Assembly (NCBI GenBank): GCA_016193065.1
Contig: JACPSX010000240.1
Span: 1-11,414 of the forward strand
Direction: 5' to 3'
Length of the DNA stretch: 11,414 nucleotides
Source: Candidatus Tectimicrobiota bacterium
Lineage (GTDB): Bacteria; JACPSX01
Numbering within the stretch: position 1 is the first letter of the stretch; every line of letters begins with the position of its first letter. A program made the position numbers and the translations under genes. This document shows positions 1 through 11,414 of the stretch, piece after piece. The notes under the pieces are model-generated. The model did not search any database. It was not told the DNA's origin and worked only from the letters and a program-made list of their open reading frames with translations.

Positions 1-396
1 ATGCGGATGCATCCCTCGGGCAACTTGATCGTGGAGGGCCGGGTGAAGGATCTCATCAACCGGGGAGGCGAGAAGATCAGCGCCGAGGAGGTCGAAAACC
101 TGATCCTGAGCCACCCCTGGGTGAAAAACGTCGCCTGCGTGGCCATCCCGGACCCGATCCTCGGCGCGCGGATGTGTGCGTGTGTCATGTTGGAGCCGGA
201 CAAAAGCCTGACGCTGGAGGAGATGTCGAATTTTCTGTTGCAACGGGGCATCGCCAAGTTCAAGTTGCCGGAGCGCCTGGAGGTCTTCGCAGAGCTACCC
301 CTGGTTCCCGGATTTAACAAGGTGTCGAAGCGGGATTTGCGTGATCTGGTGAATCAAAAGCTCCAAGCTGAGCAACAGGCCGCTGGCGGCAAATAG
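1..396 (+). CDS. Aryl/acyl adenylate-forming ligase (AMP-dependent CoA ligase), C-terminal part only
   Basis: This is the 3' end of a gene that begins before the window; the ATG at base 1 is internal, not the start. The 131 visible residues are the small C-terminal domain of the ANL superfamily (acyl-CoA synthetases, EntE/DhbE aryl-AMP ligases). The hinge/A8 motif GRVKDLINRGGEKISAEEVE starts at about residue 13 and is very close to that of 2,3-dihydroxybenzoate-AMP ligases and salicylate-type ligases. The segment FKLPERLEVF and the A10 region FNKVSKRDLR follow. K107 is the expected catalytic lysine; the residue before it is Asn where Gly is usual. The family adenylates a carboxylic acid with ATP and then transfers it to CoA or a carrier thiol. 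The substrate-specifying N-terminal domain is missing, so the acid cannot be named. A liv-type importer starts 120 nt downstream, which suggests activation of an imported aromatic or fatty acid. Confidence 0.88.
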   Translation: MRMHPSGNLIVEGRVKDLINRGGEKISAEEVENLILSHPWVKNVACVAIPDPILGARMCACVMLEPDKSLTLEEMSNFLLQRGIAKFKLPERLEVFAELPLVPGFNKVSKRDLRDLVNQKLQAEQQAAGGK

Positions 397-516
397 ATAC
401 TCCGCCAGGATCTGGAGGGAGCTATCCCCGTTTCCCTGACACGTTCTTAGGGTGTAGTGGGCGCCAGAGGACGGGGAGAGAATACACAATCATTACCCAC
501 GGAAGGAGGCCGCACC

Positions 517-1755
517 ATGCGTTCGTTCATCGCGACAGCGCTACGCTCGGGGATCCGGTCGGCGGTTTTCACCCTGTTCGTCGCCGGATTGATTCTGGTC
601 AGCGGTGTGGCGGTTGCCCAAGAGGCCAAGCCGTTTAAGATCGGAGTTCTGGCGCCGCTGACGGGCCCGCAGACTCAACTCGGCCAGAACCTCGTCGCCG
701 GGGTTCGCTTTTTCTTCCAGCAGCGCCCTGCTATCGCCGGGCGTTCGGTCCAGCTTGTGGTGGAGGACACCGTTTCCCAGCCGGGACAAGGATTATCCAA
801 GGCCCGAAAGCTCCTGGATCTCGATCGGGTGGACATCGTGATGGGAATTGTAAACAGTGCCGTCCTGGACGCGGTGCAGGGCATGATCCTGGGACGGCGT
901 GTGCCGCTCATCGTGACGAACGCCGGCTCCGACGGCTTTACGAAGGGCAGCGTGAACCGCTATGCCTTCCGCGTCTCCCACACCAACTCCCAGAACAACC
1001 TCGCGTTAGGGTGGTACGCCTACGAAAAGCTCGGGTACCGGAGGGCCGCCGTCCTCACCTATGACTTCATCGCGGGGGTCGAGCACGCGGGCGGCTTCAA
1101 GAAGACCTTCACGGAGATGGGCGGCACCATCACGCAGGAAGTGAAGGCGCCCCTGGGCACGAGTGATTTCGGCCCTTATATTTCTCAGATCCGAACGGGT
1201 GAGATCGATGTCCTCTACGTCTTCCTGGCCGGGGCCGACGCGATCCGCTTCATGCAACAGGCGGACAGCTTCGGGTTGAAGAATCGCACCAAGATCATCG
1301 GACCCGGTTTTGTTGCCGATGATCTGATCCTGGCGGCCCAACGGGATGCCGCGGTGGGTGTGGTGACGGCGATCCAGTATGTGAACACCATCGATACTCC
1401 GGAGAACCGGGAGTTCACCGCTGCCTATCGCAAGGCCACCGGCCAGGAGGCAAACCTCTACGCGGAAGATGCCTATACCGCGTGCGAAGCCGTGGCGAAA
1501 GCTCTGGAAGAAGTCCGCGGGGATACAAGTGACATATCCCGCTTCGTGAACGCCCTCGAAAGCGTCAAGTTCACCTCACCGCGCGGGCCGTTCCGCTTCG
1601 ATAAGAATCACCAGGCTGTCTTCACGGTCTACGTCGCGCGGGTCACGAAGATCGGGACTCAATACCGGAACACGATCATCGACCAGATTCCGGATGTGGG
1701 TCAGGACTGGTCGCCTGCCTCTCGCCCGCAACCCTCCCGTCCACAGGGTCGATAG
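517..1755 (+). CDS. ABC transporter substrate-binding protein, branched-chain amino acid (HAAT) family
   Basis: This 412-residue exported protein captures the ligand for the importer encoded downstream. The ATG at 517 is preferred because GGAAGGAGG (501-509) lies 7 nt upstream and the protein then begins with a classic signal peptide: Arg at 2, 10 and 14, a hydrophobic core at about 15-31, and a likely cleavage site AVA|Q after residue 34. An in-frame ATG at 457 would add 20 polar residues ahead of the signal. The mature protein is a type I periplasmic-binding fold (Peripla_BP_6): KIGVLAPLTGPQTQLGQN at its start, VEDTVSQPGQGLSKARKL, and SDFGPYISQI in the second lobe. There is no lipobox cysteine, so it is probably a soluble periplasmic protein. 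In this family the ligand is often an aromatic acid, amide or fatty acid rather than leucine; the upstream ligase favours a carboxylic acid, but this is inference. The C-terminus ends in a short Pro/Arg/Ser-rich tail. Confidence 0.93.
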   Translation: MRSFIATALRSGIRSAVFTLFVAGLILVSGVAVAQEAKPFKIGVLAPLTGPQTQLGQNLVAGVRFFFQQRPAIAGRSVQLVVEDTVSQPGQGLSKARKLLDLDRVDIVMGIVNSAVLDAVQGMILGRRVPLIVTNAGSDGFTKGSVNRYAFRVSHTNSQNNLALGWYAYEKLGYRRAAVLTYDFIAGVEHAGGFKKTFTEMGGTITQEVKAPLGTSDFGPYISQIRTGEIDVLYVFLAGADAIRFMQQADSFGLKNRTKIIGPGFVADDLILAAQRDAAVGVVTAIQYVNTIDTPENREFTAAYRKATGQEANLYAEDAYTACEAVAKALEEVRGDTSDISRFVNALESVKFTSPRGPFRFDKNHQAVFTVYVARVTKIGTQYRNTIIDQIPDVGQDWSPASRPQPSRPQGR

Positions 1756-1761
1756 GCGCAG

Positions 1762-2643
1762 ATGGGAGGAGGAGCGGCTTCCCAGCTCGTTGCACAGATT
1801 CTCAACGGCCTCTCCTTCGGCATGCTCCTCTTCCTGGTGTCGAGCGGCCTGACGGTCATCTTCGGGTTGATGCGGGTGCTGAGCCTTGTCCATGGATCGC
1901 TCTATCTGTTCGGCGGCTACCTGGCCTTCACGGTGCAGCGCGCCACCGGGAAATTCCACCTGGCGTTGATCGTCGCCGTGCTGGGCTGCAGCCTGCTCGC
2001 CTGGGTCATCGAGCGTCTCTTGCATCGCCAGCTCTACGTGGGGCTGCAACTGAACCAGGTGCTGCTCACCATGGGGCTGGCGTTTGTCATCGGCGATTTC
2101 GTCCTCTGGTATTGGGGAGGAAACCCCCAGACCGTGACCCCTCCTGAGATCCTGCGGGGCTCTCTATCCCTGGGCTTTGGGATCGTCTATCCGCGGTATC
2201 GTCTGCTGATCATCGGGATCGGGCTGGCAATTGCCGCCTTGTTTCATCTGGTCTGGGATCGCACCCGCCTGGGGGCCATTCTGCGGGCCGGTGTGGACGA
2301 CGCGGAGATGCTGCGCGGTCTGGGGGTGCGAATCGGCATCGTGTTCACTGCGGTCTTTGCCGGCGGAGGCGCTCTGGCCGCCTTCGCGGGGACGCTGGGC
2401 GGGCCGTTTCTGGGGGTCTATCCCGGGCTGGATTTCGAGGTGATCCTGCTCTCCGTTGTGATCGTGGTCGTGGGAGGGGTGGGAAGCCTGACGGGTGCGT
2501 TTCTAGGGAGCATCGTGATCGGGCTGCTGGACGCCTTCAGCAAGGCGTACTTCCCCGTCTTCTCTTACTTTGCCATGTTTGGACCCATGATCCTCATCCT
2601 GGCCTTCAAACCCACCGGACTATTTGGGGCGGATCGGACGTGA
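1762..2643 (+). CDS. livH: Branched-chain amino acid-type ABC transporter permease, LivH family
   Basis: This 293-residue integral membrane protein is one of the two channel subunits of the importer. It shows the LivH pattern: the opening LVAQILNGLSFGMLLFLVSS, then GLTVIFGLMRVLSLVHGSLY, followed by multiple hydrophobic segments (about eight). The cytoplasmic coupling region around GAILRAGVDDAEMLRGLGV is the part expected to touch the ATPase. The closing VVVGGVGSLTGAFLGSIVIG is also typical of the family. It starts 6 nt after the stop of the substrate-binding-protein gene, with only a weak AGGCG-like ribosome site, so translational coupling is likely. Its TGA overlaps the GTG of livM by 4 nt. 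The name reflects the family, not proven leucine transport. Confidence 0.93.
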   Translation: MGGGAASQLVAQILNGLSFGMLLFLVSSGLTVIFGLMRVLSLVHGSLYLFGGYLAFTVQRATGKFHLALIVAVLGCSLLAWVIERLLHRQLYVGLQLNQVLLTMGLAFVIGDFVLWYWGGNPQTVTPPEILRGSLSLGFGIVYPRYRLLIIGIGLAIAALFHLVWDRTRLGAILRAGVDDAEMLRGLGVRIGIVFTAVFAGGGALAAFAGTLGGPFLGVYPGLDFEVILLSVVIVVVGGVGSLTGAFLGSIVIGLLDAFSKAYFPVFSYFAMFGPMILILAFKPTGLFGADRT

Positions 2644-3584
2644 GCCGCCGTTATTGGATCCCCGCAGTCGGTCTCGGGCTGCTCTTCTTGTCGGCTGTCC
2701 CTACTCTCTTGCCTCGGTACGCGATCGATCTCATTGCCCAGGGGATGATTTTTGCCATCGTGGGGATGGGCCTCGACATCCTGGTCGGGTACCTCGGATT
2801 GCCGTCGCTCGGTCATGCGGCCTTCTTCGGTCTGGCTTCTTACGGACTCGCGATACCCGTGACCCGGTTAGGGTGGGCGCCGTGGGCGGGTGCCGGCGTT
2901 GGGCTCCTGACGGCGGCGGTCGCGGCTGCCCTGTTCGGCTTGCTTGCCGTCCGCTGCCGCGGGGTTTATTTCTTGGTATCTACCCTGGCCTTCGGCCAGG
3001 TACTCTGGGGGGGCGCCGTCAAGTGGACTTCCGTTTCTGGAGGATACAACGGGATCCCGGGCATCCCTCGCCCGTCTCTTTTCGGCTGGAGCCTCTGGGA
3101 GCCAGACGCGTTTTATTATTTCGTTTATGCTGTGTTTGTCGTGGTCGCGGCCATGCTTGTCCTCTTCGTCCTGTCGCCCGTCGGTAAGATCCTGACGGGG
3201 ATCCGAGAAAGCGAATCCCGGATGCGGGTTCTCGGCTACCGCAACCAGCTTTACCGCTATATGGCCTTTTCTCTATCCGCATTCGTCACGGGGATCGCCG
3301 GGATTTTGATGGCATACTTCAACACCTTCGTCGGACCCGACAGCCTCCACTGGAGTCTGTCCGCCCAAACGCTGCTCATGGTGATCCTGGGAGGGGCGGG
3401 AACTTTGCTCGGTCCTGCTGGAGCGGGCATTCTGCTCGTGGTGGCCCAGAACCTCATCAGCAACGTTACGGAGCGTTGGACCATGGTGTTGGGACTTCTC
3501 TATGTCGCGACCATGTTGTTCGCGCCGAGGGGGGTGCTTGTACTGCTCCGAGGGCTGCTGGCCCAGCGCCGGCCGTCCAGTTGA
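2640..3584 (+). CDS. livM: Branched-chain amino acid-type ABC transporter permease, LivM family
   Basis: This 314-residue polytopic protein is the second channel subunit. The GTG start overlaps the livH stop (GTGA) and has GGGGCGGA about 8 nt upstream, so livH and livM are translationally coupled. Family features are DLIAQGMIFAIVGMGLDILV followed by GYLGLPSLGHAAFFGLASYG, the periplasmic stretch WTSVSGGYNGIPGIPRP, the ATPase-coupling loop GKILTGIRESESRMRVLGY, and VILGGAGTLLGPAGAGILLV near the end. About eight to nine hydrophobic segments are visible and the length is normal for LivM. With LivH it should form the heterodimeric membrane pathway for the cargo delivered by the substrate-binding protein. 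Confidence 0.93.
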   Translation: MSRRYWIPAVGLGLLFLSAVPTLLPRYAIDLIAQGMIFAIVGMGLDILVGYLGLPSLGHAAFFGLASYGLAIPVTRLGWAPWAGAGVGLLTAAVAAALFGLLAVRCRGVYFLVSTLAFGQVLWGGAVKWTSVSGGYNGIPGIPRPSLFGWSLWEPDAFYYFVYAVFVVVAAMLVLFVLSPVGKILTGIRESESRMRVLGYRNQLYRYMAFSLSAFVTGIAGILMAYFNTFVGPDSLHWSLSAQTLLMVILGGAGTLLGPAGAGILLVVAQNLISNVTERWTMVLGLLYVATMLFAPRGVLVLLRGLLAQRRPSS

Positions 3585-3621
3585 GCAGGATGCCCGCTCA
3601 TCAACGCCGATCGGGGGAAGC

Positions 3622-4362
3622 ATGACCGCGCTGTCCGTCGAGCAGATCTCCTGCCATTACGGCGGGCTGAAGGCTTTGGATAGCGTTTCGTTCAGCGTGG
3701 CTGAAGGCGCGAGACATGTCATCCTCGGGCCCAATGGCGCCGGCAAGACAACGCTCTTCGACGTCATCACCGGTGAGAAGTCCCCGTCGTCGGGACGAAT
3801 CATGCTGTTCGGCCGCGATGTGACAGGGCTCAGGTCGGACCGGCGGGCCTGGCTTGGCCTGGCACGGACCTTTCAGATCACCAACTTGTTTTGGGACCTG
3901 ACGGTCGAGGAGAACGTCCTGCTGGCCTGTCTCGCACAAGAACAATCACGTCGGGTCTTCTATCGCCCGGCAGGCTCCTTCCCTGATCTGGTGGCAAAGA
4001 CTCGATCTTTACTCGAGGAGTTTGGCCTGGGGAAGCTGGCGAAGGTGAAGGTTCGTTCCACTTCTTATGGCGAGCAGCGACAACTGGAGATCGTGATCGC
4101 CCTGGCTACGCAGGCCAGGCTGATACTCCTGGATGAACCCACCGCCGGTCTTTCCGGGGAAGCAACGAAACTTGTGACCCGTCTGACCGGGAATCTTCCC
4201 GCTACGATCACGGTGCTGCTGGTGGAGCACGACTTGGATGTTGCTTTCCAGGTGAGCCAGACGGCGACCGTGCTTCATCAGGGGAAGCTGATCGCGCACG
4301 GACCCATCGAGGAAGTGCGCGCGAACCCAACGGTGCGGCAGATCTACCTGGGGAGAAGATAG
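3622..4362 (+). CDS. livG: Branched-chain amino acid-type ABC transporter ATP-binding protein, LivG family
   Basis: This 246-residue ATPase powers the importer at the inner face of the membrane. The ATG at 3622 is chosen because GGGGGAAG ends 1-2 nt upstream and the sequence then starts like other LivG proteins (LSVEQISCHYGGLKALDSVS). An upstream in-frame start at 3502 would add 40 residues that overlap livM in another frame. Visible motifs are Walker A GPNGAGKTT, the Q-loop in LARTFQITNLF, a LivG-type signature TSYGEQRQLEI in place of LSGGQ, Walker B LILLDEP, the D-loop, and the switch histidine in LLVEHDLDVAF. The C-terminus QIYLGRR matches the family ending. It pairs with LivF to form the nucleotide-binding heterodimer. 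Confidence 0.94.
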   Translation: MTALSVEQISCHYGGLKALDSVSFSVAEGARHVILGPNGAGKTTLFDVITGEKSPSSGRIMLFGRDVTGLRSDRRAWLGLARTFQITNLFWDLTVEENVLLACLAQEQSRRVFYRPAGSFPDLVAKTRSLLEEFGLGKLAKVKVRSTSYGEQRQLEIVIALATQARLILLDEPTAGLSGEATKLVTRLTGNLPATITVLLVEHDLDVAFQVSQTATVLHQGKLIAHGPIEEVRANPTVRQIYLGRR

Positions 4363-4386
4363 GCGGGCTGCGGAGGGTACAGAGTA

Positions 4387-5094
4387 ATGGCAGCCGTTCA
4401 GTTGGTCCTTCAAGCGCAGGATGTCCATACGTACTACGGTCATAGCCATGTCCTGCAGGGCGTTTCCCTCCAAATTCTCGAAGGTCAGATCGTCGCATTA
4501 CTCGGGCGTAATGGGGTCGGCAAAACCACGTTTGTCCGGTCTGTTATCGGATTTACCCCGCCCTTGCGCGGCCGGATTTCGCTCTTCGGGCGGGATGTCA
4601 CCCGGTTGTCCCCCGAGCGGCGAGCCCGCCTGGGCCTGGGGCTCATTCCGCAGGGACGGCGAGTTTTTCGAAGCCTTACCGTAGAGGAGAACATCGAGGT
4701 CGCAGCACGAGGCGAGGGGGGCACTTCCCTGCAGGATCTCATGGAGATTTTCCCAAACCTGAATGAACGGCTCCGCGTGAGGGCGGGAAAGTTGAGTGGC
4801 GGAGAGCAGCAGATGGTCGCTATTGCACGGGGCTTGCGGACCACGCCGCGCTTGCTTCTCATGGATGAGCCTTCCGAAGGCCTCGCACCCTTGTTGGTCC
4901 AGAAGCTGACGGAGCTGATCCGCCAGATCCGGGCCGACGGCGTCTCCATCCTTTTGGTTGAGCAAAACCTTCCGTTGGCCCTGGAGGTGGCCGATTTCGT
5001 CTACATTATGGAGCGAGGACGCGTGGTGTATCAGGGGCTTCCGGAACAACTGGCCAGGGACCTGCAGGCGCAATCGGCGTTCCTGGGAATCTAA
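4387..5094 (+). CDS. livF: Branched-chain amino acid-type ABC transporter ATP-binding protein, LivF family
   Basis: This 235-residue ATPase is the second nucleotide-binding subunit of the importer. It starts 24 nt after livG, with GGAGGG at about 4371-4376 as ribosome site. Motifs in order: Walker A GRNGVGKTT (residues about 40-48), Q-loop region LGLIPQGRRVFRSLTVEENI, a canonical signature LSGGEQQMVAIARGL, Walker B LLLMDEPSEGLAP, and the switch region LLVEQNLPLAL. The usual switch histidine is Gln in this last motif, which is normal for LivF. The C-terminal AFLGI matches the LivF ending and indicates a complete protein. It is the last gene of the importer operon. Confidence 0.94.
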   Translation: MAAVQLVLQAQDVHTYYGHSHVLQGVSLQILEGQIVALLGRNGVGKTTFVRSVIGFTPPLRGRISLFGRDVTRLSPERRARLGLGLIPQGRRVFRSLTVEENIEVAARGEGGTSLQDLMEIFPNLNERLRVRAGKLSGGEQQMVAIARGLRTTPRLLLMDEPSEGLAPLLVQKLTELIRQIRADGVSILLVEQNLPLALEVADFVYIMERGRVVYQGLPEQLARDLQAQSAFLGI

Positions 5095-5414: not shown

Positions 5415-5882
5415 GTGACCCGGGGGCAAGAGAGCGGTGATATGCAAGGACCAGATCGGGAGAATTTCCTAGAAAGCATTCTTCGCATCGGGCAGGAAGA
5501 ACGCCAGGGGGTCTTTGCCGTAGACCGCAAGGACCGCATCGTCCTGTGTAATGCGATGGCTGCCACCCTCATCGGTGCCAAGCCGGAGGATGTGATCGGC
5601 AAGCACTGCTACGAGGTGTTTCTCGGGCAGGACCGATTTCATAATCTCTTCTGTTATGCCCACTGCCGGCTGTGGGCCCTGGTTCGGGAGGGCTACCCAG
5701 TCCACCCATTCCTTTTTGTCCTCAAGCGGCCGGACGGCCGGATGGTATGGACCAAGACGCGGATCTTCATGGCCTCTGCCCGGGAGGGGGATGAGCAGCT
5801 CATGGTTCATATCCTGCGGGTTATCCCTTACCCCGCCCGGGCCGGGCGGCGCAAGGGCCCTCTACTCGCAAGACCTAAATAA
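5415..5882 (+). CDS. Small stand-alone PAS-domain protein with cysteine motif
   Basis: This 155-residue soluble protein consists of essentially one PAS domain (about residues 25-135) and no visible output domain. PAS features are GVFAVDRKDRIVLCNAMAAT, then LIGAKPEDVIGKHCYEVFLG, and FVLKRPDGRMVWTKTRI. Between the halves sits C65-x14-C80-x3-C84 (HCYEVFLG ... FCYAHC), a pattern I associate with a PAS subfamily seen in one-component regulators and two-component sensors, where the cysteines may bind a metal or sense redox state. The start is uncertain. GTG 5415 has AGAAGGAT 9 nt upstream; ATG 5442 would remove nine residues without touching the domain. nfnA begins 19 nt downstream, so the two are probably co-transcribed and this protein may sense or modulate that redox system. 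It has no DNA-binding helix-turn-helix and no kinase domain, so it would have to act through a partner. Confidence 0.8.
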   Translation: MTRGQESGDMQGPDRENFLESILRIGQEERQGVFAVDRKDRIVLCNAMAATLIGAKPEDVIGKHCYEVFLGQDRFHNLFCYAHCRLWALVREGYPVHPFLFVLKRPDGRMVWTKTRIFMASAREGDEQLMVHILRVIPYPARAGRRKGPLLARPK

Positions 5883-5901
5883 TTAAGGAAGGCGACTGTC
5901 T

Positions 5902-6768
5902 ATGTTCCCAATACGTTCTCGTAAGGAGATTGCGCCAAAAACGGTCCTCCTGCACGTGGAGGCTCCCCTGGTGGCCAGGAAAGTCGAGCCCGGTCAGTTT
6001 GTTATCGTGCGTGTCAATGAAGAAGGGGAGAGGATTCCCCTGTCGATCTCCGGTTGGGATCGCCGGGCGGGTACGATTCGCTTGGTGGTCCAGGGGGTGG
6101 GACGGACCAGCTACGAGATTCTGGATCTCCAGGAAGGCCAGGGGTTTCAGGATGTGGTGGGCCCTTTGGGGAAACCAACGGAAATCAAGTTTTACGGTAC
6201 CTGCGTCCTCATCGGTGGAGGATACGGGGGCGGGGCCATCATCCCTATGGCTGAGCGCTTGAAAGAGTTGGGCAACACGGTCATCGGAATCTTGGGAGCC
6301 CGCTCCTCCGAGCTTCTGATCATGGCGGAGGAGCTGAGCCAGGCTTGCCATCAGTTGCACATTTCCACCAACGACGGCAGCCGCGGGGTCAAGGGAATGG
6401 TCACGGACGTCCTCTCGGAGCTTCTGAAGTCCCAGGCTGTGAACTACGTGGTGGGGGTGGGCCCGATTCCCATGATGGCCGCCATTGCCGAGATGACCCG
6501 GCCCTTTCGAATTCGAACCCACGTAAGCTTGAATGCCCTGATGATGGACGGCATCGGGATGTGCGGAGCTTGCCGGGTTACTGTGGGGGGGAAAAGTTAC
6601 TTTGCCTGCGTGGATGGTCCCGAGTTCGACGGCCATCAGGTCGATTTTGACGAGATTGCCCAGCGCCTCACGATCTATCGTGAGGAGGAGAAGATCGCCG
6701 CGGACCTCTACCTGCAGAGAAAGGAAACCGCGTGTCGAAGCCTAAGCTCAGTAACAAAGAGCGCATGA
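5902..6768 (+). CDS. nfnA: NADH-dependent reduced ferredoxin:NADP+ oxidoreductase subunit A (NfnA/SudB-like)
   Basis: This 288-residue cytoplasmic flavoprotein of the ferredoxin-NADP reductase superfamily is the small subunit of NfnAB. It has an N-terminal FAD-binding beta barrel (EPGQFVIVRV, then ERIPLSISGWD with the R-x-x-S flavin motif), a dinucleotide-binding domain beginning LIGGGYGGGAIIPMAERLKE, and a C-terminal [2Fe-2S] site with D216, C221, C224 and C236 in MMDGIGMCGACRV ... FACVDGPEF. In Thermotoga NfnA the cluster is held by three Cys and one Asp; D216 is placed to play that role. NfnAB uses flavin-based electron bifurcation to interconvert NADPH with NADH and reduced ferredoxin. 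The ribosome site GGAAGG (5887-5892) lies 9 nt before the ATG. The last 37 nt overlap nfnB. The alternative names sulfide dehydrogenase subunit beta or FNR-alpha refer to the same family. The glycine loop GGGYGGGA lacks the usual later Ala-Pro. Confidence 0.9.
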   Translation: MFPIRSRKEIAPKTVLLHVEAPLVARKVEPGQFVIVRVNEEGERIPLSISGWDRRAGTIRLVVQGVGRTSYEILDLQEGQGFQDVVGPLGKPTEIKFYGTCVLIGGGYGGGAIIPMAERLKELGNTVIGILGARSSELLIMAEELSQACHQLHISTNDGSRGVKGMVTDVLSELLKSQAVNYVVGVGPIPMMAAIAEMTRPFRIRTHVSLNALMMDGIGMCGACRVTVGGKSYFACVDGPEFDGHQVDFDEIAQRLTIYREEEKIAADLYLQRKETACRSLSSVTKSA

Positions 6769-8222
6769 AAATTCCCCGGCAGCCGATGCCGGAGAGAGAC
6801 CCCGCGGAGAGGGCGCGCACGTTTGAAGAGGTTCCCCTGGGTTTTTCCGAAGAAACCGCGGTTCTGGAAGCCAGCCGCTGCATTCATTGTCCCCACAACG
6901 ACTGCGTGGAAGGCTGTCCGGTGGGAATCGATATCCCCGCTTTTCTCCGTCTCATTGAAGAAGGTGACTTTCTAGGCGCGGCTCAAAAAATCCGGGAAAA
7001 AAACGTGCTCCCCGCGATTTGCGGCCGGGTCTGTCCCCAGGAGCAGCAGTGCGAGAAAGCCTGCATATTGGCTCTAACTAAGAAGCCAAGCCCCGTGTCC
7101 ATCGGGAGGCTGGAGCGGTTTGTGGCCGATTACGAGCGGCGCTCGGGAAAAATAGAGGTCCCCGAGGTCCCCCCGCCCACGGGATTCCGGGTCGCCGTGG
7201 TCGGATCGGGCCCGGCGGGTCTCACGGCGGCCAGCGAGCTGGCCCGCTTGGGTCACAAGGTGACGATCTTCGAGGCCCTTCACCGGCCCGGGGGGGTGCT
7301 GTTTTACGGCATTCCCCGGTTTCGTCTCCCCGGGGAGGTGATCTCGGCCGAAATTGAGAGTCTCAAGAAGATGGGCGTTGAGATCGTGTGCGATGCGGTG
7401 GTGGGGAAGTTTGCCACGATTTCCGAATTGTTTGACCTGGGATATGATGCGGTCATGATCGGCACCGGGGCGGGACTCCCCTGGTTTCTGGGGATTCCAG
7501 GTGAAAATCTGCTCGGAGTCTTCTCGGCCAATGAATTTCTCACCCGGGTAAACCTGATGCGGGCGGATCGCTTCCCCAACTCCATCACCCCGGTGCGGGT
7601 AGGCAAGCGAGTAGCCGTCATTGGAGCCGGCGATACGGCCATGGATGCGGCCCGCACGGCTCTGAGGCTGCGGCCGGAGAGCGTGACCATTTACTACCGG
7701 CGCTCCCGGGCCGAGGCTCCCTGCCGGGTGGAAGAGCTCGCTCACGCGGAGGCCGAGGGAGTCAAGTTCGAGTTTCTCACGAACCCCTTGCGCTTTATCG
7801 GGGACGAGGATTATCGGTTGGTGGCTATCGAGTGCCAGCGCATGGAGCTCGGCGAGCCCGACAAGTCAGGCCGGCGGCGCCCCGTCCCCACCCCTGACTC
7901 GAATTTTACGGTGCCCATCGATTCGGCCATCTTTGCCTTGGGCTTCGGGGTGAACCCACTGATTCGCCAGAGTGCCCCTGAACTGGAAGTCGACGATCGC
8001 GGAGTCTTGAAGATTGATCCCGAGAAGGGGATGACCTCTATGCTGGGAGTTTTTGCCGCTGGCGACATCGTCACCGGTGGGGCCACGGTCATCCTGGCCA
8101 TGGGCCAGGCGAAGAAGGCGGCGGCCGGAATTCACCGCTATTTGATGGAGAAAAAATTAGAGGGTTCCCCTCTGGAAGCAGGCGCCTCACAGGTCTCGGG
8201 CGCTTCGGAAAACAGGGGCTAA
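6732..8222 (+). CDS. nfnB: NADH-dependent reduced ferredoxin:NADP+ oxidoreductase subunit B (NfnB/GltD-like)
   Basis: This 496-residue iron-sulfur flavoprotein is homologous to the glutamate synthase small subunit and is the large, bifurcating-FAD subunit of NfnAB. The N-terminal iron-sulfur region has C50-x2-C53-x4-C58-x3-C62 and C97-x3-C101-x5-C107-x3-C111. E104, within CPQEQQC, sits where Nfn-type proteins are reported to use a Glu cluster ligand. The FAD motif GSGPAG starts at residue 158, followed by HRPGGVLFYGIPRFRLP; the NADPH motif GAGDTAMD is at 298-305; the C-terminal FAD motif is GVFAAGDIVTGGATVILAMG. Start choice: GTG 6732 keeps the conserved leader KLSNKERMKIPRQPMPERDP and has GAAAGGA upstream; ATG 6765, overlapping the nfnA stop as ATGA, would lose 11 residues. 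No glutamate synthase large subunit is adjacent and NfnA is, so NfnB is a better call than GltD. The C-terminal 20-odd residues form a low-complexity tail. Confidence 0.91.
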   Translation: MSKPKLSNKERMKIPRQPMPERDPAERARTFEEVPLGFSEETAVLEASRCIHCPHNDCVEGCPVGIDIPAFLRLIEEGDFLGAAQKIREKNVLPAICGRVCPQEQQCEKACILALTKKPSPVSIGRLERFVADYERRSGKIEVPEVPPPTGFRVAVVGSGPAGLTAASELARLGHKVTIFEALHRPGGVLFYGIPRFRLPGEVISAEIESLKKMGVEIVCDAVVGKFATISELFDLGYDAVMIGTGAGLPWFLGIPGENLLGVFSANEFLTRVNLMRADRFPNSITPVRVGKRVAVIGAGDTAMDAARTALRLRPESVTIYYRRSRAEAPCRVEELAHAEAEGVKFEFLTNPLRFIGDEDYRLVAIECQRMELGEPDKSGRRRPVPTPDSNFTVPIDSAIFALGFGVNPLIRQSAPELEVDDRGVLKIDPEKGMTSMLGVFAAGDIVTGGATVILAMGQAKKAAAGIHRYLMEKKLEGSPLEAGASQVSGASENRG

Positions 8223-8264
8223 AGCACGACGAAACGGATCCGGAGAGACCTGGAGGTCTGGGCG

Positions 8265-8576
8265 ATGCTCAAGGACACGGAAGGGGCGAAATACATCCGG
8301 ATCACTTGCCACTCCCACCTGCACGATTTGATTGTCCAAATCCTGGATAATTTCGGTGAGAGCGAATATACGACGTGCTCCCGGGTCTGCGGCACCGATG
8401 CCGACGGCAGGCACTTCGGCACGGCTGTGTGGCCCGGCAACGAGGAGGTTTTTTCGATCCTGGTGTCTGGCGCATTGGCCCGTCCTCTGTTCGACAAGCT
8501 GGTGGAATTCAAGAAAAGCGACCCGGCCTATGCCAACATGAGGATTGCCGTGATTCCTGTGGAACGATGTGGTTGA
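8265..8576 (+). CDS. Small PII-like (PG0541-type, ferredoxin-fold) protein, Cys/His-rich
   Basis: This 103-residue cytoplasmic protein resembles small PII-like proteins with an alpha-beta ferredoxin fold, such as PG0541-type transporter-associated proteins. Shared elements are a first beta strand plus helix (IRITCHSHLHDLIVQILDNFG), the T-loop-like segment YTTCSRVCGTDADGRHFGT followed by AVWPGNEEVF, and a closing strand MRIAVIPVE. The family call comes from remembered motif shape, so the exact subfamily is uncertain. Unusual for its size are C15, H16, H18 and H20 together, C38-x3-C42 in the loop, H50 and C102, which could form a metal or redox site. It has a clear ribosome site, GGAGGT (8252-8257), 7 nt before the ATG, starts 42 nt after nfnB, and ends 19 nt before the radical SAM gene, so it belongs to the same operon. 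A regulatory or sensory role is plausible. Confidence 0.65.
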   Translation: MLKDTEGAKYIRITCHSHLHDLIVQILDNFGESEYTTCSRVCGTDADGRHFGTAVWPGNEEVFSILVSGALARPLFDKLVEFKKSDPAYANMRIAVIPVERCG

Positions 8577-8595
8577 TGTAGGGACGAAGTAACCG

Positions 8596-9684
8596 ATGCA
8601 CTCTCCTCCCTTAAAACTCGTCTTCTGGGAAAGCACAGTGGGCTGCAATCTGGAATGCCGGCACTGCCGGCGGCTGGAGGTCAGCAAGACCCTGGCTCGC
8701 AGCGATCTGACCACCCAGGAGGCCTTCGCGTTCGTTGAATCCCTGTCCGAGATGGGGCGCCCCATCCTGGTCCTGAGCGGGGGCGAGCCCCTGTTCCGTC
8801 CCGACATTTTCGAAATTGCCCGCTATGGGGGGCGACGGGGGATTCCCGTGGCTCTGGCCACGAACGGAACCCTCGTGGACCGGCAAACCGCAGGCCAGGT
8901 GCGGGCCGCGGGGATTCGCCGAGTTTCCGTGAGCCTGGACGGGGCGGACGCCGAAACCCACGACCGTTTTCGGGGGATTCCGGGGTCCTTCGATGCGGCG
9001 CTAAGAGGGATTCAGGAGCTACGCGGGGAAGGAATCAGCGTACAGATCAACAGCACCGTGGCCCGCCACAACGTGGAGCAGAGGGAGGACCTGTACCGTC
9101 TCTGCGTGGGTTTGGGGGCCGATGCCCTGCACATTTTCATGCTGGTGCCGGTGGGCTGCGGCGTGGAAATTGCCGATGACCAGATGCTCTCCCCGGAGAA
9201 GTACGAGGAGGTTCTCCTGTGGCTCTACCGGAAGAGCCGGGAGAAGGTTCTGCACACGCGGGCCACTTGCGCCCCTCATTATTTCCGCATCCTCAGGGAG
9301 CAGGCCCGGGAAGAAGGGCGCCGCCTTGATCTGCCGCGCCAGGGCATGGAAGCCATGACGAAAGGGTGCCTGGCGGGCTCCGGAGTCTGCTTTGTCTCCC
9401 ACAAGGGGGAGGTCTTCCCCTGCGGCTATCTGCCGGTGACGGCGGGCAATATCCGGACCCAGCGCCTGCGGGAGATCTGGGAGCATTCCGCGGTGTTTGA
9501 CCGGTTGCGCCACCCGGAGCTCTTGCAGGGGAAGTGCGGTTTGTGCGAGTATATCAAAGTCTGTATGGGGTGCCGGGCGCGGGCCTTCTCAGAGACCGGA
9601 GACTACATGGCGGAAGAGCCCTACTGCATCTACACGCCGAAGGTCCAGAGAGAGACGGACTTGTCCTCTTTGCCGGAGTATTGA
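8596..9684 (+). CDS. Radical SAM/SPASM protein of the AhbC/NirJ heme-modifying type
   Basis: This 362-residue cytoplasmic enzyme has the radical SAM cluster motif C17-x3-C21-x2-C24 (VGCNLECRHCRR), the SAM-binding GGEP motif (VLSGGEPLFRPDIFEIA), and strand motifs ALATNGTLV and VSLDGADAETHDRFRGIPGS. The C-terminal SPASM-type region has cysteines at 258, 265, 276, 314, 317, 323, 326 and 344 (GCLAGSGVCF, PCGYL, CGLCEYIKVCMGCRARAF, EEPYC) for auxiliary iron-sulfur binding. Long segments such as LGADALHIFMLVPVGCGVEI, TCAPHYFRI and YMAEEPYC match AhbC (12,18-didecarboxysiroheme deacetylase of the siroheme-dependent heme pathway) and NirJ (heme d1 synthesis) as I remember them. A tetrapyrrole substrate is therefore likelier than a peptide. 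No other ahb or nir gene is in the window, so the exact reaction is open. NfnAB could feed it electrons through ferredoxin, but this is inference. Confidence 0.85.
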   Translation: MHSPPLKLVFWESTVGCNLECRHCRRLEVSKTLARSDLTTQEAFAFVESLSEMGRPILVLSGGEPLFRPDIFEIARYGGRRGIPVALATNGTLVDRQTAGQVRAAGIRRVSVSLDGADAETHDRFRGIPGSFDAALRGIQELRGEGISVQINSTVARHNVEQREDLYRLCVGLGADALHIFMLVPVGCGVEIADDQMLSPEKYEEVLLWLYRKSREKVLHTRATCAPHYFRILREQAREEGRRLDLPRQGMEAMTKGCLAGSGVCFVSHKGEVFPCGYLPVTAGNIRTQRLREIWEHSAVFDRLRHPELLQGKCGLCEYIKVCMGCRARAFSETGDYMAEEPYCIYTPKVQRETDLSSLPEY

Positions 9685-9692
9685 GAAGGTTG

Positions 9693-9726
9693 GGTCTCGA
9701 AAGGAGGTGAAAGAGAACCGGAGACC
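9693..9726 (+). promoter_or_regulatory. Hairpin displaying an orphan strong Shine-Dalgarno sequence
   Basis: GGTCTC (9693-9698) and its exact complement GAGACC (9721-9726) enclose a 22-nt loop that contains AAAGGAGGTGA (9700-9710), a near-perfect anti-16S match. No sensible ORF follows: the GTG inside the motif gives a seven-residue peptide, and TTG 9727 is too far away and gives nine. The element sits in the 100-nt leader between the radical SAM gene and the exported heme-protein gene, which has its own AGGAG site. It could stabilise or regulate the transcript, or be fortuitous. Confidence 0.3.
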
Positions 9727-9784
9727 TTGAGCAAACGGGGTCGGGAGGGGAACTGACCTTAATGCTGAAAAGGAGAACGGGGGC

Positions 9785-10816
9785 ATGAAAAAGCGGTTTG
9801 TACTTTTTGCCGTCTTGTTGGTCTTTGCGGCCCTCTCGATGTGGAAGGTGGGAGGGTACGCCCAGGACTCAGGTGTCCTGACCGCCAAGAAAGTTGCCAA
9901 AGGGCCGGTGCTGGACGGAAAAGTGGATGCGCTCTGGAACCAGGCCAAGGCGATCAAGATTCCTGTGTCCGCGGGTGCCAATTTCCCTCCGAATGGCAGC
10001 ACCACAGTGACCTTGAAGGCTGTTTACACGGACACGGATGTTTACTTCCTGGCCCAATGGGGCGACAAGACCCGCAGCTACCAGCGCTCCCCCTGGAAGA
10101 AGCAGGCCGATGGCTCCTGGGCGAAGCTTAAGGACCCCAACGACAAGGGGGGGGACAACAACAAGGTCTACGAAGATAAGTTGTCCGTGATCTGGAACGT
10201 CAGCGCCCCGGCGTTTGAATCCGCGGGGTGCATGGCCGCCTGCCACGCCGGGGAGGCCGGGAAGCCTTACGGGAACATGTACACGGCGAATCCGGGGGAG
10301 CTGGGAGACATGTGGCACTGGAAGGCGGTGCGCACGAACCCCGTGGGGCAGATCGATGATCAGTACCTGGATAACACTCCATACGACAAGGACAAGTCCC
10401 CGAATGCCGGGAGAAAGACCGACCCCAAGACGGGGGGCGGATACGTCGATAACCAGACCGACGACAAGAAGATGCCCAAATTCGCTGCCAAGGGGAACAA
10501 GCCCGCTCCTCCGTACTGGATTCTGGACAAGGACAAGGAGCCCTTTGACGACTCCAAGTACAAGGCGGGGAATGAAGTCGCCGGGATCATGGTCGCTCCA
10601 TTTGAGGGCGATCGTGGGGACATCAGCGCCAGGGCTTCCTGGAGCAAAGGGGTGTGGACTCTGGAGATCTCCCGCAAGCTGAAGACCGGCAGCAAGTATG
10701 ACGTCCAGTTTGATGACCTGAGCAAGCAGTATGCGTTTGGCGTGGCCGCGTTCGATAACGCTTCGGTCCGCCATGCCTTTGCCGGCGGTCCGAGCAAACT
10801 GGCCTTCGGCAAGTAA
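9785..10816 (+). CDS. Exported ethylbenzene dehydrogenase-related (EB_dh) heme-binding protein
   Basis: This 343-residue secreted protein has an N-terminal signal (MKKRFVLFAVLLVFAALSMW, hydrophobic core about 5-19) and likely cleavage near GYA|QD at residue 26. The body resembles the EB_dh domain, the gamma-subunit type of DMSO-reductase-family enzymes that binds heme b: VAKGPVLDGKVDALWNQAKA, AVYTDTDVYFLAQWGDKTRS, then MWHWKAVRTNPVGQIDDQYL at about 176-195, and WTLEISRKL near the end. The only two cysteines of the whole protein are C149 and C153 in GCMAACHAGEAG, giving CX3CH, a spacing one residue longer than the standard c-type heme site, so covalent heme is possible. The ribosome site is AGGAG (9771-9775). 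No molybdopterin catalytic subunit or iron-sulfur beta subunit is present, so it probably acts as an independent periplasmic electron carrier or heme protein. The middle (about 200-265) is lysine/aspartate-rich and low in complexity. Confidence 0.82.
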   Translation: MKKRFVLFAVLLVFAALSMWKVGGYAQDSGVLTAKKVAKGPVLDGKVDALWNQAKAIKIPVSAGANFPPNGSTTVTLKAVYTDTDVYFLAQWGDKTRSYQRSPWKKQADGSWAKLKDPNDKGGDNNKVYEDKLSVIWNVSAPAFESAGCMAACHAGEAGKPYGNMYTANPGELGDMWHWKAVRTNPVGQIDDQYLDNTPYDKDKSPNAGRKTDPKTGGGYVDNQTDDKKMPKFAAKGNKPAPPYWILDKDKEPFDDSKYKAGNEVAGIMVAPFEGDRGDISARASWSKGVWTLEISRKLKTGSKYDVQFDDLSKQYAFGVAAFDNASVRHAFAGGPSKLAFGK

Positions 10817-10966
10817 TTTCCCGGGCCGGCCCCCTGGACTGCCGGATTGTTTGCGGAGTGGAGAACAGAGAATTCGCGGCAAGCAATTGAGCGCAAACTC
10901 GTCGGTTGTCCGGGGGGCTATGCCCGGTGAAGTCGATCCTCATGCTCCTCCTGCGGCCTTGACCTT

Positions 10967-11414
10967 ATGAGCAGCCTGATCCTGCGCAAGCTAGTCCTGG
11001 CCTTTTTGCTGGTCGTCCTCCCGGAAGCTCTCATCCTGGGTGGGGTGAGCTTTTACGCCCAAAGGGAGCTCGTCAACATTGCCCGCCAGCTTGAGGAAAT
11101 CAGCCGCTCCCTGGAAGCCACCCGCGCTTTGAATCTCTCCTTGGCCGAGCTCTCGGATCCGATCAATAGCTACCTTCTCCAGGCGGACCCGGGGGCCGAG
11201 GTCCACTTTGCCCTTCTCATGCAGGGCGTACAAAACCAGTTGCAAAGCTGTGGTACGGCCCTTTGCCACGAGGCCAGCAAACGGCCCGGGGAGATGGTCA
11301 ACGTCATCTCTCCCGACATTGCCCGGGTGAAGAAATTGGCCGATGAACTTTTTTCTCTGTCCGATCCCCTGCGCAGTCCCGATGGGATCGAAATTATGAC
11401 GCGGATTATGCGCG
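10967..11414 (+). CDS. Membrane sensor protein (histidine kinase or chemoreceptor type), N-terminal fragment with CX4CH motif
   Basis: Only the first 149 codons are in the window; the gene runs off the end. The ATG at 10967 is the first possible start after the in-frame TGA at 10928, and no strong ribosome site precedes it. Residues about 8-30 (LVLAFLLVVLPEALILGGVSF) form one transmembrane segment, followed by a helical extracytoplasmic stretch (RELVNIARQLEEISRSLEAT, LSDPINSYLL) as in four-helix sensor domains of histidine kinases and methyl-accepting proteins. C95 and C100-H101 in QSCGTALCHEAS form CX4CH, the only cysteines seen, which could attach a c-type heme or another cofactor on the periplasmic side. 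Catalytic or signalling domains (HAMP, kinase, MCP) lie beyond the window, so the class is inferred from topology. It follows the exported heme protein by 150 nt and may sense its redox state or the same ligand. Confidence 0.6.
   Translation, partial: MSSLILRKLVLAFLLVVLPEALILGGVSFYAQRELVNIARQLEEISRSLEATRALNLSLAELSDPINSYLLQADPGAEVHFALLMQGVQNQLQSCGTALCHEASKRPGEMVNVISPDIARVKKLADELFSLSDPLRSPDGIEIMTRIMR

Follow-up and report, generated by a model that had tools for sequence, protein, structure and literature searches.

The DNA analyzed here (the window) is the complete contig C138 (JACPSX010000240.1; 11,414 bp) of the 2.9-Mb draft genome of a Candidatus Tectimicrobiota bacterium (294 contigs, 86% complete). 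Its downstream part carries seven genes, all on the + strand, in the order PAS, nfnA, nfnB, PII-like, radical S-adenosylmethionine (SAM), EB_dh, and the start of a sensor gene (Table 1). A preliminary description of the window had read these genes as a candidate undescribed redox/heme module that includes an AhbC-like radical SAM enzyme. Our analysis points to an anaerobic heme-making and heme-using neighbourhood rather than to a new dedicated system; an AhbD-type enzyme would perform the terminal step, and NfnAB is a plausible electron donor. We consider this account fairly probable. Labels L, G, and C below denote loci, genomes, and contigs of the source genome, respectively.

Gene layout

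All seven genes were present at the positions and in the common orientation first proposed for them. Successive gaps were 19, -37, 42, 19, 100, and 150 nt, confirming that the first five genes overlap or lie no more than 42 nt apart. No terminator-like site was found in the + strand gaps between the genes, including the two long ones, so the genes may be co-transcribed or may belong to separate units. Nothing pointed to separate transcription starts at 9685 or 10817.

Table 1. Genes in the downstream part of the window, with the matches on which their assignment is based
Feature	Coordinates	Strand	Evidence
Single PAS-domain protein, 155 aa, Cys 45/65/80/84	5415..5882	+	Pfam PAS_9, 1.1e-10
NfnA-type FAD/[2Fe-2S] small subunit, NADH-dependent ferredoxin:NADP oxidoreductase	5902..6768	+	5jca_S (NfnI subunit beta), E 2e-81; NF004862, 366 bits
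NfnB-type FAD/2x[4Fe-4S] large subunit	6732..8222	+	PDB 4ylf_B, 1.3e-158; 5jca_L, 3.5e-149; TIGR01316, 593 bits (cut-off 472)
PII-like protein, PG0541 family, CX3C at 38-42	8265..8576	+	NF045581, 53.5 bits (cut-off 45)
AhbD-type radical SAM/SPASM enzyme, likely heme b synthase (coproheme decarboxylase)	8596..9684	+	TIGR04545, 467 bits
Exported EB_dh-family protein with CX3CH (149-154), putative periplasmic heme protein	9785..10816	+	Pfam EB_dh, 5.1e-44
Membrane-anchored sensor, N-terminal part, CX4CH (95-101)	10967..11414	+	Open reading frame (ORF), cut at contig end

A radical SAM enzyme, most likely of AhbD type

The best NCBIfam model for the radical SAM protein was TIGR04545 (AhbD heme b synthase), which was matched over its full length. 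Rival models scored 184 bits (AhbC, TIGR04546; cut-off 650), 196 bits (NirJ), and 339 bits (TIGR04053). These scores ruled out an AhbC identity, and the earlier AhbC-like label is replaced here by AhbD-type. The radical SAM motif CX3CX2C was present (C17, C21, C24), and the eight SPASM cysteines were complete (C225-X32-C258-X17-C276-X37-C314-X2-C317-X5-C323-X2-C326-X17-C344). Their spacings (32, 17, 37, 2, 5, 2, 17) fit the full AhbD motif CX20-33CX17CX36-37CX2CX5CX2CX17-35C (PMC10452713).

The protein thus shares with TIGR04545 and with Methanosarcina barkeri AhbD (PMC10452713) a full-length match, the CX3CX2C motif, and the eight-cysteine spacing. It differs from known AhbD systems in scoring below the TIGR04545 cut-off of 500 bits, in belonging to a genome in which AhbA, AhbB, and AhbC were not found, and in having NfnAB and a PII-like gene as neighbours. 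The nearest sequences were from anammox planctomycetes, with identity of up to 69%. Placement of the protein within a well-supported clade of the AhbD tree (38 rows, support 100/98) is in keeping with this family. Judging from its sequence, the enzyme is most likely AhbD-type, a terminal heme synthase that would give plain heme b.

A second radical SAM/SPASM protein of the source genome, on contig C149 (L047 8241-9401), matched TIGR04053 with 482 bits (cut-off 395); its gene adjoins DUF2249/DUF1858 and COX1-like genes.

Heme pathway in the source genome

Contig C83 carries a cluster of three heme genes. The first, a hemD-hemE fusion, encodes a 639-aa protein (L143 5820-7739) and is followed by hemH and then hemY; the HemE part of the fusion (397 bits), HemH (210 bits), and HemY (322 bits) each scored above a cut-off. 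Searches of the 86% complete genome revealed no match for AhbA/B (AsnC_trans_reg2 domain) and no AhbC over the cut-off, which speaks against the siroheme route at this level of completeness. ChdC, HemF, and a true HemN were likewise not found in it, the sole HemN-like gene being HemW. The C83 cluster and these absences together suggest that AhbD probably closes the coproporphyrin pathway in this organism.

A role of AhbD in the coproporphyrin route has already been described for some organisms (PMC7242693, PMC10548856). The source genome resembles these cases in its HemE/HemH/HemY cluster, in the absence of detectable HemN, HemF, and ChdC, and in having AhbD as the sole candidate end enzyme. 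It differs in that ahbD lies on another contig than hemDE-hemH-hemY, and the CgoX and CpfC specificities are predictions.

Conservation was assessed in the 80 nearest ahbD loci and in the 80 loci whose nfnA is closest to that of the window; the comparison genomes share only the domain rank with the source genome. Among the 80 ahbD loci, ahbC lay no more than 5 kb away in 26, and hemH, hemY, or chdC lay nearby in 21 others; the two contexts never coincided. Close AhbD homologues in Chloroflexota adjoin chdC, hemH, and hemY. The order at L092 (Anaerolineae) was chdC-hemH-ahbD-hemA-hemC-(hemD)-hemB, with hemD assigned by position only.

In the Anaerolineae loci (L092 7647-11110), chdC, whose product has a C-terminal Rieske domain, forms a row with hemH and ahbD, so that genes for an oxygen-dependent and an oxygen-independent coproheme decarboxylase stand together.

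EB_dh protein and sensor

The EB_dh-family protein scored 151.5 bits with the Pfam model (cut-off 33.3). It shares the EB_dh domain with heme proteins such as the ethylbenzene dehydrogenase gamma subunit and NxrC, and has a signal peptide-like N-terminus. It differs from them in its CX3CH motif, which suggests that heme may be bound covalently, and no molybdenum enzyme genes were noticed in the window. The motif was also present in homologues at L137, L138, L037, and L039. The structure model of the protein was of low confidence (predicted local distance difference test score, pLDDT, 37). In genome G372 (L264 2236-3732), an exported-looking 499-aa protein has a C-terminal EB_dh domain without a CXnCH motif, and its gene ends near the nfnA start. 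The N-terminal part of the sensor had no match in Pfam or NCBIfam; the gene is truncated by the contig end at 11414, and any output domain would lie beyond the contig.

One hypothesis of the preliminary description was an undescribed route of periplasmic electron transfer or signalling, based on a specially modified heme. The gene combination is indeed unusual, and an exported CX3CH EB_dh protein and a CX4CH sensor are encoded near a tetrapyrrole radical SAM enzyme. However, the known product of AhbD is ordinary heme b, the genome revealed no alternative last step towards heme b, and the EB_dh homologue at L137 precedes genes for a cytochrome bd-type subunit and for cytochromes of the c type, without AhbD. 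With plain heme b as the expected product, the modified-heme idea loses its basis, and we regard such a route as very improbable.

NfnAB and its radical SAM neighbours

Both Nfn subunits matched solved NfnI structures over their full length. The window pair agrees with known NfnAB (PDB 5jca, 4ylf) in having both subunits, adjacent and in the same gene order; it differs in being followed directly by a PII-like gene and ahbD, and its electron bifurcation is a prediction. NfnA is common, being present in 291 of 386 genomes.

Only one neighbour link of the window recurred in unrelated bacteria: seven of 76 other nfnAB pairs, from four families, were followed within 2 kb by a same-strand radical SAM cofactor gene (bioB, ahbC, ahbD, or moaA). 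The genes nfnA-nfnB-ahbC-ahbD are consecutive in G266, and G206 has the order nfnA-nfnB-rex-polyprenyl synthase-ahbC-ahbA/B. In the two closest nfnAB pairs (G036 and G182; 62%), bioB starts 28 nt after nfnB (L205 3152-4144 and L206 6011-7003, respectively). In three genomes from a single family, moaA or a radical SAM gene resembling it lies no more than 1.5 kb away; the NCBIfam check covered one of these genomes. Other flanking DNA contained 4 same-strand radical SAM genes in 655 kb. The number expected in the downstream 2 kb was ~0.87, and the Poisson probability of four independent events was ~0.012. Radical SAM genes were detected by motif, according to position, in loci ranked by similarity to the window nfnA, and the test was made after the pattern had been seen; the recurrence statistic is therefore a lead only.

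Loci L223 and L247 have, ~0.9 kb downstream of nfnB, a ~550-codon gene with a radical SAM motif on the strand opposite to nfnAB.

Two studies of AhbD mostly used dithionite as reductant (PMC10452713, PMC11306076), and in one of them turnover with a ferredoxin/reductase system is reported to be very slow. The natural reductant of AhbD in vivo therefore appears unsettled. Among the papers listed by a literature search for ties of NfnAB to heme synthesis or to radical SAM enzymes, none mentions NfnAB. The gene arrangements suggest, but do not prove, that NfnAB feeds low-potential electrons to AhbD. A more specific proposal is that NfnAB is a dedicated electron supplier for the radical SAM enzymes of cofactor biosynthesis (here AhbD, in other lineages BioB, AhbC, and MoaA) and that the PII-like protein tunes NfnAB activity by cellular nucleotide state. 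We consider this proposal rather unlikely.

PII-like and PAS proteins

The PII-like protein scored over the curated cut-off for PG0541, a PII-like transporter-associated protein (NF045581). Its single-sequence structure model, though of modest quality (mean pLDDT 61), had a PII-like predicted fold; all 50 listed fold matches were PII-like proteins, e.g., CPII and SbtB. The gene differs from its relatives in its surroundings: an RND transporter gene adjoins PG0541 genes in 28 of 30 relatives, and none was seen in the window. A genome-contig search anchored on the PII-like protein revealed no relative. No homologue of the PAS protein or of the sensor was found across all compared loci at E 0.01.

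Conservation and alternative accounts

Several observations weigh against the reading of the locus as a heme-making and heme-using neighbourhood served by AhbD and NfnAB. One is the shortfall of the radical SAM protein on TIGR04545. Homologues encoded in ahbC-ahbD pairs also scored below 500 bits (L003, 491; L004, 481; L210, 446), and one further homologue scored 586 bits. Another is the AhbD tree (88 rows), in which the window protein, on a long branch (0.53), fell inside a 38-row clade (support 100/98) that includes the anammox planctomycete group and 12 ahbC-linked (siroheme-route) members; loss or transfer must therefore be assumed. In a genome that is 86% complete and divided among 294 contigs, the absences of heme genes may be gaps. 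Finally, the 80 nearest AhbD loci all lacked NfnA within a distance of 10 kb, and the Nfn link is therefore sporadic.

Because the genome has a ferrochelatase and the siroheme branch is absent, we also considered that the substrate of the radical SAM protein has shifted away from coproheme, either to a d1-like heme or to a peptide. The score, the branch length, and the lack of an AhbC partner are consistent with such a shift. However, every SPASM and radical SAM cysteine is kept, the protein is up to 69% identical to AhbD-type proteins of anammox planctomycetes, and no short peptide gene or nir genes were noticed nearby on reading the ORFs. A substrate shift is thus improbable in our view.

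Like NfnA, the PII, PAS, and EB_dh genes were missing from the 10-kb surroundings of the 80 AhbD loci, and the 80 nfnAB loci had neither a PII gene nor the window PAS gene. The combination of PII-like protein, Nfn, heme enzyme, and EB_dh protein as a unit was thus unrepeated in 80 + 80 related loci, and the seven-gene neighbourhood is not conserved outside the source lineage. These findings do not uphold the idea of one conserved, undescribed module. They also agree with a chance neighbourhood, i.e., ordinary housekeeping and respiratory genes on one strand with no functional link among NfnAB, AhbD, and EB_dh; the wide distribution of NfnA and the missing RND partner of the PG0541 gene point the same way. 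The tight spacing of the first five genes argues against chance, as does the presence of nfnAB beside radical SAM genes in four other families, two of them involving ahb genes. A chance neighbourhood is a serious possibility, though a doubtful one. The preliminary description was thus correct as to genes, coordinates, and spacing, and its redox/heme theme (NfnAB, a tetrapyrrole radical SAM enzyme, and a heme-type exported protein) is retained; the AhbC label, the conserved composition, the new module, and the modified heme are not.

Contig assignment and upstream genes

Tetranucleotide usage of the window correlated with that of two other contigs of the source genome (r = 0.91 for the hemH contig, and 0.88), as against 0.58-0.73 for stretches of other genomes. 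Mis-binning of the contig is therefore thought unlikely. Rfam and tRNA searches of the window gave no matches. Upstream of the PAS gene, positions 1-5094 (+ strand) contain the end of an acyl-CoA ligase-like gene followed by an ABC transporter set of the branched-chain amino-acid type; these names come from reading the ORF sequences, with no family search behind them.

Proposed role of the neighbourhood

We propose that HemE (UroD), HemY/CgoX, and HemH/CpfC, encoded elsewhere in the genome, make iron-coproporphyrin III. AhbD would convert this presumed substrate to heme b by two oxidative decarboxylations, using SAM and a low-potential electron. The most likely task of NfnAB is to interconvert NADPH, NADH, and reduced ferredoxin; by keeping ferredoxin reduced, it could plausibly supply the electron that starts the AhbD reaction. 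The PII-like and PAS proteins probably act in the cytoplasm, as regulators of expression or activity. Probable consumers of heme in the periplasm or membrane are the EB_dh protein and the CX4CH sensor, whose genes perhaps form separate transcription units.

The coproporphyrin-plus-AhbD route would thereby be extended to another lineage. If NfnAB does supply AhbD, a physiological reductant for this enzyme would be named. A genome in which AhbD is the sole visible last step of heme synthesis, encoded two genes from nfnAB, offers a direct test case for the feeding of radical SAM enzymes by NfnAB.

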